From Gemmatimonadaceae bacterium (lineage in GTDB: Bacteria; Gemmatimonadota; Gemmatimonadetes; Gemmatimonadales; Gemmatimonadaceae), in assembly GCA_025934775.1 (NCBI GenBank), contig JAICWO010000005.1, positions 186,001 through 250,000 on the forward strand: a DNA stretch of 64,000 nucleotides. Direction: 5' to 3'. Made by a program: the position numbers and the translations under genes. Shown here in pieces: positions 5,201-13,691 of the stretch (position 1 is the first letter of the stretch; the number at the start of each line of letters is the position of its first letter). The notes beneath the pieces were generated by a model that saw only the letters and a list, made by a program, of their open reading frames with translations, did not search any database and was not told the DNA's origin.

Positions 5201-6162
5201 CGGCTCGTGTCCCACGCGCCATCGTACTCGACGCGCGCGCCTTGCTCGTCGACGCACGTGATGCGGCCGGTGGCACGCACGCCGTTCGCGTCGTACGCCG
5301 CGATCATCGCCTCGAGTACGCGTTGCGCGACGCCGTCATCATCCACCAGCGCGAACGCCGACGGTCCGCCGCCGGAGATCGAGCAGCCGAGCGCGCCTGA
5401 ATCGAGCGCGGCGCGCTTGGCGCGAGTGAAGCCGGGGAGCAGCGGCGCGCGCGCCGGTTCCGCAATGCGATCGTCGACCGCGCCGCGGAGCAGGGAGAGA
5501 TCGCCCGTGCAGAATGCAGCGACCATCGCCGACACGGCCGACGCCTGCGCGAGCGCGCCCGCGCGGTCGATCGCAGCGGGAAGCACCGCGCGCGCTTCCG
5601 CGGTGCGCAATTCCATTTCCGGGTGCACGAGCACGATGCGCAACGCGGCGGGGACGGGAAGCCGGATGAAATCGAGCGGCTCGATCGAACGAATGAGCAG
5701 GATCCCGCCGAACAGTTCCGGCGCGAGATTGTCGATGTGCCGGCCCGACAGCCGCTCCTCTGATGCGAGCGCAGCGCGCAGCACGTCTGGTGCCTCGAGC
5801 GGATTACCGAGCAGCGCGTTCGCCGCGACGGCTCCCGCGACCGCCGATGCCGCGCTGCCGCCCTGGCCGCCGGCGAGGGGTAATCGCTTCTCGACGCGGA
5901 GCGCGATCCCGACGTCGCTCACATTTGCGAGACGGAGCACCGCGGCGGCGGCGATCGCCGATGCATGGCGTTCCGGATCGCGAGGGAGGGCAGGATGTCC
6001 GGGGTCATCCACGCGCACGCCCCGTTCCTGAATTCGAGACGCGACGACGCTGTCGCCGATGCCGGCGACGGCGCAGCCGAGGATGTCGAGGCCGGGGCCG
6101 AGATTGCCGATCCCGCCCGGTGCGGTGGCGCGGACGGTCGCGGCCCGTTCGTTCGAGTGCAT
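5197..6162 (-). CDS. thrB: Homoserine kinase
   Basis: About 321 residues; GHMP-kinase fold. Phosphorylates homoserine with ATP, supplying the next enzyme, threonine synthase, whose start overlaps this stop. Landmarks are the N-terminal strand ATVRATAPGGIGNLGPGLDILG, the nucleotide-binding loop PLAGGQGGSAASA, and the C-terminal SISGGGPSAFAL motif. Start ATG 6162 is preferred; upstream codons extend into a Met-poor, non-family leader. An AT-rich box (about 6229-6248) upstream, before the mobile element begins at 6271, probably contains the promoter, so the insertion left thrB expression signals in place. Confidence 0.93.
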   Translation of the reverse strand: MHSNERAATVRATAPGGIGNLGPGLDILGCAVAGIGDSVVASRIQERGVRVDDPGHPALPRDPERHASAIAAAAVLRLANVSDVGIALRVEKRLPLAGGQGGSAASAVAGAVAANALLGNPLEAPDVLRAALASEERLSGRHIDNLAPELFGGILLIRSIEPLDFIRLPVPAALRIVLVHPEMELRTAEARAVLPAAIDRAGALAQASAVSAMVAAFCTGDLSLLRGAVDDRIAEPARAPLLPGFTRAKRAALDSGALGCSISGGGPSAFALVDDDGVAQRVLEAMIAAYDANGVRATGRITCVDEQGARVEYDGAWDTSR

Positions 6163-6270
6163 CCCCCAAAATAGGGCGGGGTGGCGCGCCAGACCGGCGA
6201 CCGACTGCCCGCAGGCGACCCGCACGAAATGCATAAAATATAAGATCAAGCAGCCGAATCAGACTTCAGT

Positions 6271-6297
6271 CAGCGGCCGGCGTTGGGTCAATTTGAA
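6271..6297. repeat. Left target duplication (8 bp) plus left terminal inverted repeat (19 bp)
   Basis: cagcggcc (6271-6278) is followed by ggcgttgggtcaatttgaa (6279-6297). The 19-bp part is the exact reverse complement of 8952-8970. Beyond it the two ends diverge. Confidence 0.88.
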
Positions 6298-6334
6298 ATT
6301 GGAGAACTGCGACTCCGCTCGTTAGCTTGCGGTT

Positions 6335-6562
6335 ATGGCGAAGCTTCCGAAACGTCCGCGCGACACCGCGCAGCTCGCGAAGTTCATGGTCGAGATGGCG
6401 ACGGGCGAGCGCCCGAAAGACAGGCCGCAGCCGAGCGACGACGCTGCGGTGAGACGTGGGTTGGCACGCAAGGAAGCCCTGCCTCCTAAGCGACGAAAGG
6501 CGATTGCCAAAAAGGCCGCCTCTGCCCGCTGGAAGGGAAAGAAAGGCAAGGAAAGGGACTGA
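6335..6562 (+). CDS. Small basic protein with C-terminal Ala/Lys/Arg motif (passenger gene)
   Basis: 75 residues, strongly basic. The first half (MAKLPKRPRDTAQLAKFMVEMATGE) resembles short proteins found on many bacterial chromosomes and plasmids. The second half ends in a RRKAIAKKAASARW motif, which recurs at the C-terminus of small histone-like or KGG-like proteins. Function is unknown; nucleic-acid binding is plausible from charge alone. It begins 37 bp inside the left end of the element, reads towards the DUF3800 gene (convergent), and is therefore cargo. A start at ATG 6335 is the only good option. Confidence 0.7.
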   Translation: MAKLPKRPRDTAQLAKFMVEMATGERPKDRPQPSDDAAVRRGLARKEALPPKRRKAIAKKAASARWKGKKGKERD

Positions 6563-6644
6563 TCGGCCTTGCTACAGGCCTTCAAAGTCCGTATTCTTCA
6601 ACAAGAAAGACATACGGTGCTTGTTCGGGTTGCGGCTGACGACA

Positions 6645-6660
6645 AGAGCCCCTGGGCTCT
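6645..6660. terminator. Weak candidate terminator between convergent passenger genes
   Basis: agagcc (6645-6650), loop cctg, ggctct (6655-6660) form a 6-bp hairpin in the 139-bp gap between the small basic gene and the end of the DUF3800 gene. No long T-run follows on either strand, so this is weak. Confidence 0.3.
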
Positions 6661-6701
6661 GCTGGGTTTACCCCTGGCTAGTCAGCCGCTCCCCTTTTTA
6701 G

Positions 6702-7358
6702 CTAGTAGTAATGCGTCGTCCCGAACCGAAACGCATCAAATTCGGTGAAGACAGATTGCTGAATGTGGGCATATGAGCGGGTATCCCCGCGCTCCCACTT
6801 CCGCTGAATTGCCCAGCTGCAATAATCCGCGACCTGGAGACACGGCTCGGACGCAGCGCTCCAAAAGGCAACACGATGATTGACGTTGGTGGTCACCTGC
6901 CACATGACGTCTTGCACTGCGGCATGAAATACCTGCTGCTTCTTCTTCGTGCCGAGCGACGCACCAACCACCAAGAGATCATCATTCGCCTGCACAATCC
7001 TGGGCGTGACGAACTTCATGTGAAGAAACCAGGCCATCTGGTAGAAGCGGGCGTCGGACGGTCGGATGGACGGCTGGGCTTTCGACTTCTCTAAAATCGT
7101 CGTATCCACGCGAAACCCGCCCTGGGCAAGAATTGCGAACACATCGTCGCGAACGTCCTGGCGGTCGGTCGTCGCGTGAAACTCAGAGTCCAGGCCGCGA
7201 TTCTTCCAAGCCAATTCGCGCCGGAGATCGAGGACGGCCGCTCCCACGCGGCAGTCGGGCGGCGCGACGGTCGTCAAGATGAAATACTTCGAAGCGCTCT
7301 GGCCGCGCGAGAAGTCAAAATTCCCGCTCTCATCGGCGAAGACATACTTGCGCGCCAT
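6702..7358 (-). CDS. DUF3800 domain protein (passenger gene)
   Basis: 218 residues, the usual size for DUF3800. The N-terminal acidic motif FADESGNFDF, the internal LDSEFHATTDRQ, and the C-terminal VADYCSWAIQRKW match the conserved positions of the family, which is predicted to be an RNase H-like phosphohydrolase or nuclease. No member of this exact type is known to me by experiment. It starts 3 bp after the stop of the winged-helix-like gene, so the two are almost certainly one transcript. DUF3800 genes often occur on mobile elements and in accessory islands; here it is cargo of an IS1-family element. The acidic residues needed for metal binding appear intact. Confidence 0.82.
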   Translation of the reverse strand: MARKYVFADESGNFDFSRGQSASKYFILTTVAPPDCRVGAAVLDLRRELAWKNRGLDSEFHATTDRQDVRDDVFAILAQGGFRVDTTILEKSKAQPSIRPSDARFYQMAWFLHMKFVTPRIVQANDDLLVVGASLGTKKKQQVFHAAVQDVMWQVTTNVNHRVAFWSAASEPCLQVADYCSWAIQRKWERGDTRSYAHIQQSVFTEFDAFRFGTTHYY

Positions 7359-7361
7359 CGG

Positions 7362-7832
7362 CTACTCAGCGTCGCCCTTGGGCTTACCGCCGTACCAGTC
7401 GGCGAGGCCCCACTCCTTCGTCCTCGTCTTCACAAAATCCTTATTGCGCGTCAGTGCGGAGTAGACGTTGCCGTATGCGATCTTGGGATCTGCCGAATTG
7501 ATTTGGCCGCCAGTGTTCAAAGCGTCAGCAATCGCCGTCACTGGCTGCGGGCGCTTCATCATCCCCAAGTACTTCCGAATCGCGTCGGCCGTGTTCAACC
7601 CGAAGAACGTGTCGCTTTCAATCGTCGTCGCCTGACGCGCGGCTGCGGGCTTCGCGGCAGGCGCGGCGAGCGGTGCGACGGCTGGGGTTGATTCGCCAAT
7701 CGTACCGTCACCGTTGATCGCCACAACGTCCGCGCCGACCATAGCGCGAATGACCTCAATTGCGGCATCAATCTGCCCGCGCTTTGCTATGAGATCGGCA
7801 AGTACGGCATTGTAGTCGATGGGAGCGGTCAC
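7362..7832 (-). CDS. Small protein with N-terminal coiled helix and C-terminal winged-helix-like region (passenger gene)
   Basis: 156 residues starting at GTG 7832, with a strong GGAGG ribosome site at 7838-7842 (complement). Residues 5-32 form a likely amphipathic helix (VLADLIAKRGQIDAAIEVIRAM). An Ala/Pro-rich linker follows (about 45-70), then a region from FFGLNTADAIRKYLGMMKRP through VYSALTRNKDF that looks like a winged helix of the HARE-HTH type. DNA binding and control of its own operon are inferred, not shown. It is the first gene of the leftward passenger unit with DUF3800 and is transcribed away from the candidate RNA and the transposase. Confidence 0.68.
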   Translation of the reverse strand: MTAPIDYNAVLADLIAKRGQIDAAIEVIRAMVGADVVAINGDGTIGESTPAVAPLAAPAAKPAAARQATTIESDTFFGLNTADAIRKYLGMMKRPQPVTAIADALNTGGQINSADPKIAYGNVYSALTRNKDFVKTRTKEWGLADWYGGKPKGDAE

Positions 7833-7870
7833 GGTTGCCTCCAGCGTGCGTCGTGCGTTATATATTCGAC

Positions 7871-7936
7871 AGGTGGACAGCCGAAAGGCCCCACCGAGAG
7901 GTGGCTGGGCCGGGGATTAGCCGGCCGTCGTTTTTT
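7871..7936 (+). ncRNA. Candidate structured RNA with tetraloop hairpins and intrinsic terminator
   Basis: The top strand shows, in order, gcc-gaaa-ggc (a GNRA tetraloop hairpin, about 7880-7889), ccacc-gaga-ggtgg (7891-7904, another GNRA loop), then a GC stem ggccgg (7908-7913) / ccggcc (7921-7926) followed four bases later by TTTTTT (7931-7936). A TATATT box lies at 7861-7866, suitably placed upstream. No reading frame fits. It could be a small RNA of the element, or only a terminator that shields the transposase. The two tetraloops and T-run are seen directly; its expression is inferred. Confidence 0.4.
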
Positions 7937-8036
7937 GTGGTCATCTCTTTCTCCATGTCGGTCGTCGCTGCCCTGCCAAGAGAGGACGACCTTCGGAAGG
8001 TGTACGCGAACGCTACCACTGCTTGTTAGGCGGTGT

Positions 8037-8073
8037 CAAGAGGGGCGTAGAGAAATTCTCTACGCCCCTCTTG
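8037..8073. promoter_or_regulatory. Perfect 17-bp hairpin upstream of the transposase
   Basis: caagaggggcgtagaga (8037-8053), loop aat, tctctacgcccctcttg (8057-8073). In addition ggcggtgtcaag (8029-8040) is complementary to cttgacaccgcc (8116-8127), codons 4-7 of the transposase, so a read-through RNA could fold across the start codon at 8107. Such structures protect several insertion sequences from outside transcription. This role is inferred. Confidence 0.6.
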
Positions 8074-8099
8074 CTTTGCGTAGAGTGGTCAAGCATATT
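8071..8099 (+). promoter_or_regulatory. Possible transposase promoter
   Basis: TTGCTT (8071-8076), a 17-bp spacer, then CATATT (8094-8099). A transcript would start about 8106, right at the ATG of the transposase, giving a leaderless mRNA; no ribosome site is visible before that ATG. Match to the sigma-70 consensus is only moderate. Confidence 0.3.
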
Positions 8100-8106
8100 G
8101 TTCATT

Positions 8107-8961
8107 ATGAATAAGCTTGACACCGCCCGTCGCTCCGCTGTCGTGCGCGCCCTGATCGAAGGCAATTCCATTCGCGCGACCTGCCGCATTACTGGCACGG
8201 CGAAGGGAACTGTCTTGAGACTTCTTGAAGACATCGGCGCCGCGTGTCGTGAGTACCAGGACCGCGCGCTGCGTGAACTACCGTGCAGAGAACTTCAATG
8301 CGACGAGCTGTGGTCGTTTGTTGGTAAGAAGAACAAGCGAGCGACCGAGGCGGATAAGCGCGAAGGGCGTGGCGATGCTTGGATTTGGACGGCGATTGAC
8401 GCACAGTTGAAGATCATTCCTTGCTGGCACGTTGGCAGTCGCGATGCTGACGCGGCCTTCACCTTCATGGAGGATTTGGTATCGCGTCTCGCGAACCGCG
8501 TCCAGCTCACGACCGACGGGCTGAAGGTCTACGCGAAGGCTGTTGAAGACGCCTTCGGGTGGAACGGCGTGGACTACGCGATGCTGGTCAAACTCTATGG
8601 AGAGACGCCAGAAGCGCAGCGCCGCTATAGTCCGGCGCAGGTTATCGGGATTCAGAAGGACTGGGTTATGGGTCGCCCCGATCCCGATAAGGTGTCAACG
8701 TCCTTCGTTGAGTCGCACAATCTCACGATGCGGATGCGCAATCGCCGGCTGACCCGTTTAACGAATGCCTACAGCAAGAAGCTTGAGAATCACATGCACA
8801 GCCTGTCCCTCTACTTCATGGCCTATAATTTCGTCCATGTCCACCATACGCTCACGAAGGAACGTGGCGGCGTTCACACCACTCCAGCGATAGCAGCAGG
8901 TGTTAGCGATCACGTCTGGAAGGTCGACGAGATTGTACGGCTGCTGCCGGATTCAAATTGA
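8107..8961 (+). CDS. IS1-family transposase
   Basis: 284 residues. Start ATG 8107 matches the usual beginning of this single-frame IS1-type group (MNKLDTARRSAVVRALIEG), so the upstream extension through the hairpin is rejected. An N-terminal helix-turn-helix (SIRATCRITGTAKGTVLRLL) is followed by the catalytic acids: Asp in QCDELWSFVGKK, Asp in QLTTDGLKVY and Glu in STSFVESHNLTMRM. The stop codon lies inside the right terminal repeat. The gene is intact, with no frameshift signal, unlike classical IS1 with its InsA/InsB frameshift. It is the only transposition gene in the element. Confidence 0.92.
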   Translation: MNKLDTARRSAVVRALIEGNSIRATCRITGTAKGTVLRLLEDIGAACREYQDRALRELPCRELQCDELWSFVGKKNKRATEADKREGRGDAWIWTAIDAQLKIIPCWHVGSRDADAAFTFMEDLVSRLANRVQLTTDGLKVYAKAVEDAFGWNGVDYAMLVKLYGETPEAQRRYSPAQVIGIQKDWVMGRPDPDKVSTSFVESHNLTMRMRNRRLTRLTNAYSKKLENHMHSLSLYFMAYNFVHVHHTLTKERGGVHTTPAIAAGVSDHVWKVDEIVRLLPDSN

Positions 8962-8978
8962 CCCAACGCCCAGCGGCC
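8952..8978. repeat. Right terminal inverted repeat (19 bp) plus right target duplication (8 bp)
   Basis: ttcaaattgacccaacgcc (8952-8970) is followed by cagcggcc (8971-8978), identical to the 8 bp before the left repeat. The repeat overlaps the last codons and stop of the transposase. Confidence 0.88.
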
Positions 8979-9071
8979 TAACCGCGCACTGCTAAGCAAT
9001 TTGACTGCTCACACCGGTCCCGCCCCTAAATGTGACCACTCGGCGGTGAAAAGTGTTGAGAGGGAGGTATT

Positions 9072-9104
9072 ATGCAACGTTGTTGTAAATCCTCGCGAAC
9101 GTAA
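9072..9104 (+). CDS. Possible 10-codon leader ORF (MQRCCKSSRT) before the SusC gene
   Basis: A very good Shine-Dalgarno (agggagg, 9061-9067) lies 4 bp before ATG 9072, and the frame closes at TAA 9102-9104, 109 bp before the SusC start. It contains two adjacent Cys codons. The ribosome site is better than that of most genes nearby. It could be a leader peptide controlling susC or chance. Confidence 0.25.
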   Translation: MQRCCKSSRT

Positions 9105-9213
9105 GCCAACCCCGGGCGATTACATCGCCATTACCCAGCTCCGTTCCGACCTCGCCCGCTTTCGGACGGGGACCAGGCAGGTTCGACTCTCTTTTCACCT
9201 CTTGGGAGGCATC

Positions 9214-12165
9214 GTGCGGAAGTTCTCCGTGAGTGCGCTGGCGTGCGCGCTGTTAGCGATCGCAGCGAGCAGTGCATCGGCCCAGCGCCGGCTAACGGGA
9301 CGCGTCACCGCCACAACTGGCGAGCCGGTTCCATCGGCGACCGTCACCGTGCAGGGCATGACGATTGGTGCTACCACCGGCGCCGATGGGCGGTTTACTC
9401 TCGCCAACGTCGGCGACGGATCGAAGGTCGTGAACGTTCGCCGCATTGGCTACAAGCCGGCGACGATTACCGTTCCCGCCACGCAGAACGAAGTGAACGT
9501 GCAACTCGAGAAGGACGTGCTCCAACTCGAGTCGGTGGTCATCACCGGTGCGGCGACTTCCGTCTCCAGTGAGAACGCCGCGCAGGCCATCACGACGGTC
9601 AGCGCGGATCAGATCGAGAAGGCGCCGACGCCGATGCTCGAGAACGCGCTCCAGGGCAAGATCCCGGGCGCGATCATCACGACGAACTCAGGCGCGCCGG
9701 GCGGCGGCTCGCAGGTCCAGCTCCGCGGCACGACGTCGATCACCGCGAACGCGCAGCCGCTGTATGTGGTTGACGGCGTCCTGGTGAGCAACGCGCAGGT
9801 CGCGATCGGCCTCAACTCGGTGACCAACGCCGGCGGCGGCATCAACTCGTCGCAGGACCAGATGGCTAACCGCATCGCCGACTTGAACCCCGACGACATC
9901 GAGTCGATCGAAGTGCTGAAGGGTGCGTCGGCCGGCGCCATCTACGGATCCAAGGCGGCGGCGGGCGTCATCGTGATCACGACCAAGCGTGGCCAGGCGG
10001 GCAAGCCGGCGCTCAACGTCGCGCAGCGGCTCGGCCAGTTCTCGATGTCCAAGGAGCTCGGCACGCGCTGCTTCCACTCGGACGCCGAGGCGCTCGCGTG
10101 GTTCGGCGCGACGGACGACTCGCAGATGCCGTCGCCCTGGCAGCCGAACTGCAACGACTTCGAGAAGCAGTACTACAGCGGCAACCCGATGTCGTACGAG
10201 ACCGATCTCTCGGTTCGCGGCGGCACGACGGGCGGCACCACCTACTACCTCGGCGGCCTCGCCAAGCGCGACAACGCGATCGAGCCGAACACCTACTTCC
10301 AGAAGCAGTCGCTCGACGCGAACATCGGCCAGTTGATCGGCACGCGCTGGAATCTCCAGGTCAACAACAACTTCGTGCACTCGCTCACGGACCGCGGCAT
10401 CTCGGGCAACGACAACAGCCCGATCGTCTCGCCGGGCGACGTGTTCTCGGGCACGCCGTCGTTCTTCAATCTGCAGTCGGGCGTGCGCAATCCGTGGCTC
10501 ACGGAAGGCACGAATCCCTTCCAGACGTCGCAGAAACTCCGTTCGCCCGAAGAAGTATTTCGCTACATCGGCGGTGTGAACACGACGTACAGCGCCTACT
10601 CGTCGAGCAATCAGTCACTCGACTTCACGCTCATCGGCGGCGTCGACGCGTTCTCCGATCGCGGCCGAGTGATCTCGCCGGCTGACCTCTACTTCGAGCC
10701 GGCCGACGGCCTTCCGGGCACCGTCGTGCTCAGCAACGCGACCTCGACCAATGCGAACGTGAACGTGTCGGGTGTCGACAAGTTCACGTTCCGGTACGGG
10801 ACCGCGACGACCTCGTTCGGTCTTCGCAAGGAACAGCGCTATTTCGATCAGACGCTCAACCAGGCGCGCAACGTTCCGGCGGGTCTCGAGAACTTCGCGC
10901 TCGGTGCGCAGCAGGCCTCGAGTGAGGGCATCACCGAGATCAAGGACTTCGGCTACTACGTGCAGGAAGAGTTCTTCACGCTGCAGGATCGCCTGCTGCT
11001 CACGGCCGCCACGAACCTCGAGCGCTCGAGCGTCAACGGCGACGCGAACAAGTTCTATCAATACCCCAAGGCGTCGGCGTCGTACCGTCTGCCGTGGCTG
11101 CCCAAGTACACGGATGACTTCAAGATCCGCGCGGCGTACGGCAAGGCCGGCAATCAGCCGCCGTACGGCTACAAGTTCACGTCGCTCGTCGTTGGCGTGA
11201 ACGACGGTCTGCTCGGCGCCCGTCCCTCGACGACCGCCGGCAACCCTGACATTCGTCCCGAGACGTCGACCGAGACGGAAGGCGGCTTTGATGCGCAGTT
11301 CCTCGGCGGCCGCGCCGCGTTCAGCGCGACGTACTTCAACAAGAAGGTCGACGATCTGATTCTCGCGGCGAACGTCGCTCCGACCACGGGCTTTACGACG
11401 AAGTACGTGAACGGCGGCACGCTGGTGAACAAGGGTGTCGAGTTGAGCCTCGATGCAACGCCGCTGCAGATGCAGAACGGGCTGCAGTGGGTCTCGCGCA
11501 CGACGTTCTATCAGTACCGCGGCAAGGTGACGTCGCTCTCCGTTCCGCCGTTCATCCCGGGCGTGGGCTCGTTCGGCCAGCGCTTCGGTTCGCCGTGGAT
11601 TCAGGAGGGCTTCTCGCCGACGACGATCAGCGTGGTCGACGACTGCAAACAGCTCACGGCGTCGGGCACGTGCCCCGCGGCGAATCGCATCGTGCGGTAC
11701 AAGGAGAGCGCGCCCGATTACACGATGGGCTTCTCCAACCAGCTCAACTGGGGCCCGGTGTCGCTCTACGGCCTGTTCGATTGGCGCAAGGGCGGTCTCG
11801 CAGTCAACCTGACGAACGAGTACTTCGACGGGACAGGCCTGGGCAAGGACACGCTCGTTGCGCAGACGCGGCTCAAGAACTTCGCGGCGGGTAAGGCGGT
11901 GTACGTCGAGCCGGCCGGCTTCGTGAAGCTCCGCGAGCTCACGGCCACGTACAAGCTGCCGTCGCGGCTGACGAACCGCTTGTTCTCGCAGGGGAAGGAA
12001 GTCCGTCTCGAGGTCTCGGGCCGCAATCTGTGGACGAGCACGAAGTACACGGGCTACGATCCGGAAGTCTCGAACTTCTCGGATCAGAACGTCGGACGGT
12101 TCCAGGACGTGACGCCGTATCCGCCGAGCCGCAGCGTGTTCTTCTCCATTTCCGCCAACTTCTAA
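9214..12165 (+). CDS. SusC/RagA-family TonB-linked outer-membrane protein (pair 1)
   Basis: About 983 residues, within the family's usual range. Start GTG 9214 is chosen because gggagg (9204-9209) sits 4 bp upstream and it opens the signal peptide RKFSVSALACALLAIAASSASAQ. A carboxypeptidase-regulatory-like domain follows (about residues 25-105), then a plug domain with LYVVDGVLVSN and GAIYGSKAAAGVIVITTK, and a long beta-barrel ending in SVFFSISANF with terminal Phe. It imports oligomeric nutrients driven by TonB together with its SusD partner 30 bp downstream. Substrate unknown; no glycanase is adjacent. The mobile element lies 236 bp upstream and may affect its promoter. Confidence 0.92.
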   Translation: MRKFSVSALACALLAIAASSASAQRRLTGRVTATTGEPVPSATVTVQGMTIGATTGADGRFTLANVGDGSKVVNVRRIGYKPATITVPATQNEVNVQLEKDVLQLESVVITGAATSVSSENAAQAITTVSADQIEKAPTPMLENALQGKIPGAIITTNSGAPGGGSQVQLRGTTSITANAQPLYVVDGVLVSNAQVAIGLNSVTNAGGGINSSQDQMANRIADLNPDDIESIEVLKGASAGAIYGSKAAAGVIVITTKRGQAGKPALNVAQRLGQFSMSKELGTRCFHSDAEALAWFGATDDSQMPSPWQPNCNDFEKQYYSGNPMSYETDLSVRGGTTGGTTYYLGGLAKRDNAIEPNTYFQKQSLDANIGQLIGTRWNLQVNNNFVHSLTDRGISGNDNSPIVSPGDVFSGTPSFFNLQSGVRNPWLTEGTNPFQTSQKLRSPEEVFRYIGGVNTTYSAYSSSNQSLDFTLIGGVDAFSDRGRVISPADLYFEPADGLPGTVVLSNATSTNANVNVSGVDKFTFRYGTATTSFGLRKEQRYFDQTLNQARNVPAGLENFALGAQQASSEGITEIKDFGYYVQEEFFTLQDRLLLTAATNLERSSVNGDANKFYQYPKASASYRLPWLPKYTDDFKIRAAYGKAGNQPPYGYKFTSLVVGVNDGLLGARPSTTAGNPDIRPETSTETEGGFDAQFLGGRAAFSATYFNKKVDDLILAANVAPTTGFTTKYVNGGTLVNKGVELSLDATPLQMQNGLQWVSRTTFYQYRGKVTSLSVPPFIPGVGSFGQRFGSPWIQEGFSPTTISVVDDCKQLTASGTCPAANRIVRYKESAPDYTMGFSNQLNWGPVSLYGLFDWRKGGLAVNLTNEYFDGTGLGKDTLVAQTRLKNFAAGKAVYVEPAGFVKLRELTATYKLPSRLTNRLFSQGKEVRLEVSGRNLWTSTKYTGYDPEVSNFSDQNVGRFQDVTPYPPSRSVFFSISANF

Positions 12166-13659: not shown

Positions 13660-13691
13660 GGAGGCGGTGGCGTTGTTCCGCCACCGCCTCC
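13660..13691. terminator. 13-bp hairpin after SusCD pair 1
   Basis: ggaggcggtggcg (13660-13672), loop ttgttc, cgccaccgcctcc (13679-13691): a perfect 13-bp GC stem 37 bp after the SusD stop. No T-run follows, as is common in very GC-rich genomes. Confidence 0.65.

Follow-up and report, generated by a model that had tools for sequence, protein, structure and literature searches.

An IS1-type transporter insertion sequence with an exchangeable defence/toxin–antitoxin-like cassette in a Gemmatimonadaceae bacterium

A complete mobile element between thrB and susC

The window analysed here, a 64,000-nucleotide stretch of a Gemmatimonadaceae contig, contains at positions 6279-8970 a complete element of 2,692 bp with perfect 19-bp inverted ends and an exact 8-bp target duplication (Table 1). 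From left to right it encodes a basic ORF on the forward strand, a DUF3800 protein and a winged-helix protein on the reverse strand, and, beyond a divergent promoter region, a forward-strand transposase whose stop codon sits inside the right end. A perfect 19-bp inverted pair that directly abuts a perfect 8-bp repeat is no chance event, and dozens of relatives repeat the arrangement. As in a transporter IS, the passenger genes are enclosed by a single pair of IS ends with a target duplication around them. An earlier note on this DNA, made from the letters alone, had described a complete IS1-family element with these ends, this duplication, an intact transposase ending inside the right end and non-transposition genes within; the sequence, a match to PF03400 and an alignment with InsB bear this out.

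Table 1. Features of the element and its borders in the window
Feature	Position	Strand	Basis
Target-site duplication, left copy, CAGCGGCC	6271..6278	.	Sequence; 8-bp duplications recur across the family
Terminal inverted repeat, left, GGCGTTGGGTCAATTTGAA	6279..6297	+	Sequence; near to the ends of the closest relative, L049
75-aa basic protein, hallmark of the family, with motif ...ARKEALPPKRRKAIAKKAASARWK	6335..6562	+	Alignment A1; HMM matches
Cargo gene 2: putative nuclease of RNase-HII fold (DUF3800), DESG motif	6702..7358	-	PF12686, PADLOC, AF2
Cargo gene 1: winged-helix (HARE-HTH-like) protein, low-confidence fold	7362..7832	-	Homologues in L099, L049, L081 and L082; model, PDB search
Perfect 37-bp palindrome, 18-bp arms, CGTAGAG/CTCTACG half sites	8037..8073	.	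Longest perfect palindrome of the window
Predicted transposase promoter, TTGCTT-17-CATATT, third CGTAGAG copy in spacer	8071..8099	+	Consensus match only
IS1-type DDE transposase, single ORF, 284 aa (ATG 8107, TGA 8961)	8107..8961	+	PF03400, alignment A2, hhalign to InsB
Terminal inverted repeat, right, perfect complement of left; includes transposase stop codon	8952..8970	-	Sequence
Target-site duplication, right copy, CAGCGGCC	8971..8978	.	Sequence

The element is single-copy, as no second copy was found in its own genome. In four of five congeners the order thrC-thrB-susC is kept (with susD too in three) and the element is absent. In these four, the alignable portions of thrB and susC are separated by only about 0.2-0.4 kb, and no ends, transposase or passengers were found in the interval, although the exact empty site is not alignable because the intergenic DNA of the congeners has diverged. 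The element was inserted recently, as the earlier note had proposed from the intact ends and duplication. The same note had named passengers sitting at this place without ends and transposase as a pattern that would speak against its reading, and the congeners have no passengers there. We regard the element as complete, IS1-type and potentially active.

The transposase

In searches with family models, the transposase scored 31.2 bits (E 3.1e-7) against Pfam DDE_Tnp_IS1 (PF03400, cut-off 24.1) and 66.3 bits against the NCBIfam IS1 equivalog NF033558, below the cut-off of 100. It could be aligned with E. coli InsB by hhalign (E 1.4e-8) with the catalytic triad aligned, and the triad residues D66, D137 and E202 are invariant in 20 relatives (alignment A2). 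Terminal inverted repeats and an 8-bp target duplication agree with the IS1 family, for which duplications of 8-10 bp are expected. The programmed-frameshift layout of InsA/InsB, a trait of classical IS1 only, was not found, the transposase being one continuous ORF, and a PDB sequence search with the transposase profile gave no match. Close plasmid relatives in Mesorhizobium, Hoeflea and Acidiphilium are publicly annotated as 'IS1 family transposase'. Separately, we noted an unannotated IS1-type transposase akin to the family (34% identity) at 174797-175666 of the jumbo phage genome of Brevundimonas phage Gurke (ON529850.1).

A family with fixed end modules and a variable centre

We searched 395 genomes from the phylum, 39 of which gave matches, together with GTDB contigs (31 loci), plasmids and IMG/VR (233 relatives, 80 kept). 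In all, these sources yielded 58 distinct complete elements with lengths of 1,323-4,254 bp (median 2,848), among them, by record title, ones from Gemmatimonadota, Chloroflexota, Pseudomonadota, Acidobacteriota and Binataceae. The earlier note had named a lack of further loci with the same ends as an argument against its reading, and loci bearing ends of this kind do exist. As the relatives had been ranked by how closely they resemble a single query, frequencies among them are not population estimates. The ends follow the GGTAGTGG-TCAGTTTGAA type and the target duplication, wherever found, is 8 bp; exact duplications with matching ends were seen in 19 of 21 complete elements in a first set and in 32 of 40 in a second. 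In 33 of the 58 elements the transposase stop is situated 9 bp within the right end. In 14 complete elements (L065, L142, L186, L208, L212 and others) stop and right end are 190-570 bp apart, and some of them have a further small ORF in that interval.

A basic protein of about 75-95 aa, usually at the left end, is encoded in all complete elements; in 39 of 58 its ORF starts no more than 100 bp from the left end, and in 55 of 58 our small-ORF HMM matches it at E<1e-5 (the match in L207, on the opposite strand, is doubtful). Outside the training set the HMM matched 39 of 42 elements at the same threshold, and in 437 kb of flanking DNA, scanned as a control, it gave one match. An NCBIfam search with the small ORF returned no match, nor did tblastn against plasmids, for which low-complexity filtering is the probable reason; on a Mesorhizobium plasmid the ORF is annotated as 'histone H1'. 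The small basic ORF is a constant component of the family, not cargo. Of the three-gene cargo claimed in the earlier note, the DUF3800 and winged-helix genes therefore stand, and the 75-aa ORF is to be counted with the invariant parts.

Where two transposases are 80-95% identical in amino acid sequence, the DNA of their elements aligns in just two stretches: the left end plus the small ORF, and the right-hand part made up of the promoter, the transposase and the right end. The cargo in between is unrelated: P63C in L062 versus DUF5343 in L064, different genes in L052 and L053, PD-Lambda-5 in L057 versus HTH-M78 in L069, and P63C in L058 versus none in L059 (of L058, L059 and L069, only the left end is seen). 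On the transposase tree, at least seven changes must be assumed for the four labelled cargo classes. A cargo ORF of at least 100 aa is present in 56 of 58 elements, and L177 is a cargo-free bare chassis of 1,323 bp. The family is thus built from a fixed left module (end, small basic protein), a fixed right module (transposase, end) and a variable centre.

The family is widespread and, apparently, unrecognised. The earlier note held such a carrier to be undescribed, which agrees with our finding no literature description in a search that reached little of the ISfinder-type IS literature; the element is, however, no single oddity but belongs to a large family whose cargo slot is exchangeable. 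The ISMhu11 group of IS1 in ISfinder has sizes well over 1 kb, and cargo-bearing kin may already be listed there.

The two cargo genes in the window

The winged-helix and DUF3800 genes form, in this order, a leftward two-gene operon with a 3-nt gap. In published work, DUF3800 proteins have been assigned an RNase-H-type nuclease fold, tied to defence loci and placed in CRISPR loci (PMC10910872, PMC12669027). The protein in the window matches PF12686 (E 3.5e-9) and, modestly, the PADLOC profile DUF3800_VII (E 2.3e-8), and a PDB sequence search with its profile gave no match. Its AF2 model (pLDDT 90) resembles RNase HII (1eke; Z 12.9, rmsd 3.2, 167 residues aligned), and D9, E10, G12, D85 and D178 are invariant (alignment A6), so that both an RNase-HII-like fold and the DE-G active-site motif were found. 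On the strength of this model we assign it with confidence as an RNase HII-like enzyme and putative nuclease. Relatives 55-62% identical are found at other places in the phylum where this transposase is missing, so the DUF3800 gene was recruited. One of these, at 62% identity (L123:2210-3447, genome G092), lies beside two IS3-type-transposase-like ORFs.

A type VII retron, which has a reverse transcriptase and an msr-msd RNA next to DUF3800, was ruled out, as the element has no ORF of reverse transcriptase size and no Rfam family scored above threshold. It speaks against the defence reading that the PADLOC DUF3800 match is modest and that its parent system, the type VII retron, needs the reverse transcriptase that is absent here. 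The Rfam scan of 5500-9500 gave sub-threshold matches only and no DUF3800-type RNA motif; among these, a tpke11 match was rejected as simply the palindrome.

For the winged-helix protein, also called as such in the earlier note, we obtained a weak match to the RNAP-delta profile (E 0.006) and a model of medium confidence (pLDDT 61), for which winged helices of RNAP delta and forkhead proteins were the top PDB matches. The fold is a lead of low confidence, and the earlier call is upheld to this extent. Homologues in L049, L081 and L082 have no obvious nuclease partner. Another homologue (L104:6350-6727, genome G054), near which no IS1-type transposase was seen, adjoins two large ORFs (814 and 1090 aa) that may form a defence operon.

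Operator-like motifs at the transposase promoter

The divergent promoter region between the winged-helix gene and the transposase spans 274 bp. Its palindrome was rejected as a terminator, as there is no T-run on either strand and it lies at the upstream edge of the predicted promoter. The second-longest perfect palindrome of the window (13660-13691, 13-bp arms) directly follows a SusD-like gene and is probably a terminator. Across the family, TTGAC is found about 35 nt before the transposase start in 37 of 58 elements (shuffled mean 3.3); the promoters also tend to have a GCTTGA motif, and in some a full palindrome lies between -35 and -10. In the window and in L099, from the same genus, CGTAGAG copies (three in each) replace the family promoter motif, in the spacer and in the upstream palindrome. 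CGTAGAG is absent from L049 and L081, which have GCCCTATA three times and twice instead (counts that none of 500 shuffles attained in either case).

The winged-helix proteins are 56% identical between the window and L099, 60% between L049 and L081, and about 35% across the two pairs, whereas the closest transposase to that of the window is in L049 (73%, versus 60% for L099). The motif thus tracks the winged-helix gene, not the transposase, in a comparison of four elements and two winged-helix clades for which the motifs were picked by eye after looking. This is the basis for the idea that the cargo regulator also controls the transposase, and the comparison is suggestive of such control.

The overlap of the operator-like motif with the predicted transposase promoter, and the presence of the winged-helix gene without the nuclease in L049, L081 and L082, would also fit cargo genes that are transposition accessories with no benefit to the host: the winged-helix protein would act as a repressor or targeting factor and the RNase-HII-fold protein would process intermediates. 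We consider this unlikely, as cargo is freely exchanged among elements with near-identical transposases, the minimal element has no cargo, DUF3800 relatives with 62% identity are found on their own in other parts of the phylum, not near this transposase, and the cargo of other elements is defence- or toxin–antitoxin-like.

Cargo across the family

Certain cargo classes recur. An HTH-M78 (ImmA/IrrE-like) protein is present in up to 18 elements, with differing partner families (11 and 3 members), and P63C proteins are found in eight. PADLOC profiles matched 15 cargo proteins as PD-Lambda-2_B (best E 1e-49) and 12 as RmrA (best E 1e-151), though such labels on HTH-M78 proteins are no proof of defence, because HTH-M78 proteins can be plain regulators. 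PD-Lambda-5 occurs in two elements, with A and B each confirmed in L057 (E 1e-110 and 1e-122). In L099, a HEC-09 match (E 9e-58) adjoins the winged-helix protein related to that of the window, and Fic and PIN cargo was seen in partly delimited elements. In a control scan of 98 flank ORFs, no family had more than three members. We read this recurrence as an enrichment for defence- and toxin–antitoxin-like genes as judged from profile matches, not as functional proof; that the cargo consists of modules of these types is likely.

Singleton cargo is highly varied and includes proteases and a substrate-binding protein, a range that could be expected if cargo consisted of neutral passengers caught by chance, for example in one-ended events, and kept only while an element is young. 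The strong recurrence of a few cargo classes from unrelated hosts, the different make-up of flank genes and the intact, compact cargo ORFs make this improbable, and somewhat more so than the accessory role discussed above.

Relation to known systems

With E. coli IS1 and single-ORF IS1-like elements, the element shares an InsB-homologous DDE transposase, short inverted ends and a target duplication in the IS1 range. It differs in having a single ORF in place of the InsA/InsB frameshift, an extra constant basic protein and a size of 2-4 kb with cargo, and in a transposase that falls below the NCBIfam IS1 equivalog cut-off. The transporter IS (tIS) concept is best known from the IS1595 family (PMC9330008, PMC3129680), and in it IS-type ends, transposase and passenger genes move as one unit. 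For our element, of which its genome has no second copy, such joint movement is implied by the target duplication around the whole and by the element-free loci of the congeners. It differs in its transposase family, a constant small ORF and a slot with recurring defence/TA-like modules. That it is an ordinary IS1595-type transporter IS wrongly placed in IS1 is very improbable, although elements of that type typically have 8-bp duplications and passenger genes: IS1 models matched the transposase, neither Pfam nor NCBIfam gave an IS1595 match at E<=1, and the catalytic residues of the transposase align with those of E. coli InsB.

In Tn3-family transposons, toxin–antitoxin (TA) modules of several families are exchanged at one fixed position next to the transposition genes and their regulatory DNA (PMC7157771). 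Modules are likewise swapped at a fixed position in the present family; its transposase, in contrast, is unrelated, it lacks both resolvase and res site, it is much smaller, and its cargo includes full anti-phage systems. Cargo of other elements matched RosmerTA, PD-Lambda-2, PD-Lambda-5 and HEC-09 profiles mostly over their full length. In RosmerTA, one ImmA-type antitoxin type pairs with different toxins (PMC10440598), a partner swapping that the HTH-M78 cargo resembles; the DUF3800 and winged-helix pair in the window is none of these four systems. Its gene order and operator-like palindrome would fit a type II toxin–antitoxin operon, in which a DNA-binding antitoxin that regulates its own operon neutralises the toxin.

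Proposed mechanism and significance

Our verdict is that the element is a transporter IS of the IS1 type whose defence/toxin–antitoxin-like cassette is exchangeable. For the reading as a whole, in which fixed modules carry an exchangeable anti-phage or TA-like cassette and the winged-helix protein represses both its operon and the transposase, we estimate a probability of roughly 70%. As the anatomy of many copies suggests, the transposase would cut and join the approximately 19-bp ends and duplicate 8 bp of target. The two-gene cassette is most likely an anti-phage or toxin–antitoxin-like module, by analogy with the ImmA/IrrE-type antitoxin-like proteins and their partners, PD-Lambda-5, the HEC-09-like nuclease, PIN and Fic in other elements, and would pay for, or enforce, retention of the transposon. 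In the divergent promoter region, the CGTAGAG palindrome is probably the binding site of the winged-helix protein, and binding would repress the winged-helix/DUF3800 operon and the transposase alike, for which the comparison of elements offers some support.

More tentatively, the family may be a minimal vehicle for interchangeable immune or addiction cassettes, in which the DNA-binding protein of each cassette places the transposase promoter under an operator of its own. If this is true, the cassette on board also decides when the transposon jumps. The hopping of single defence or toxin–antitoxin cassettes between distant bacteria is poorly understood, and a 2-4 kb family in which the chassis stays fixed and one slot is free would be a simple carrier for them. 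The combination of ends, small basic ORF and IS1-type transposase gives a search signature for new defence modules, and the family offers a testable case of cargo that regulates its own transposition.
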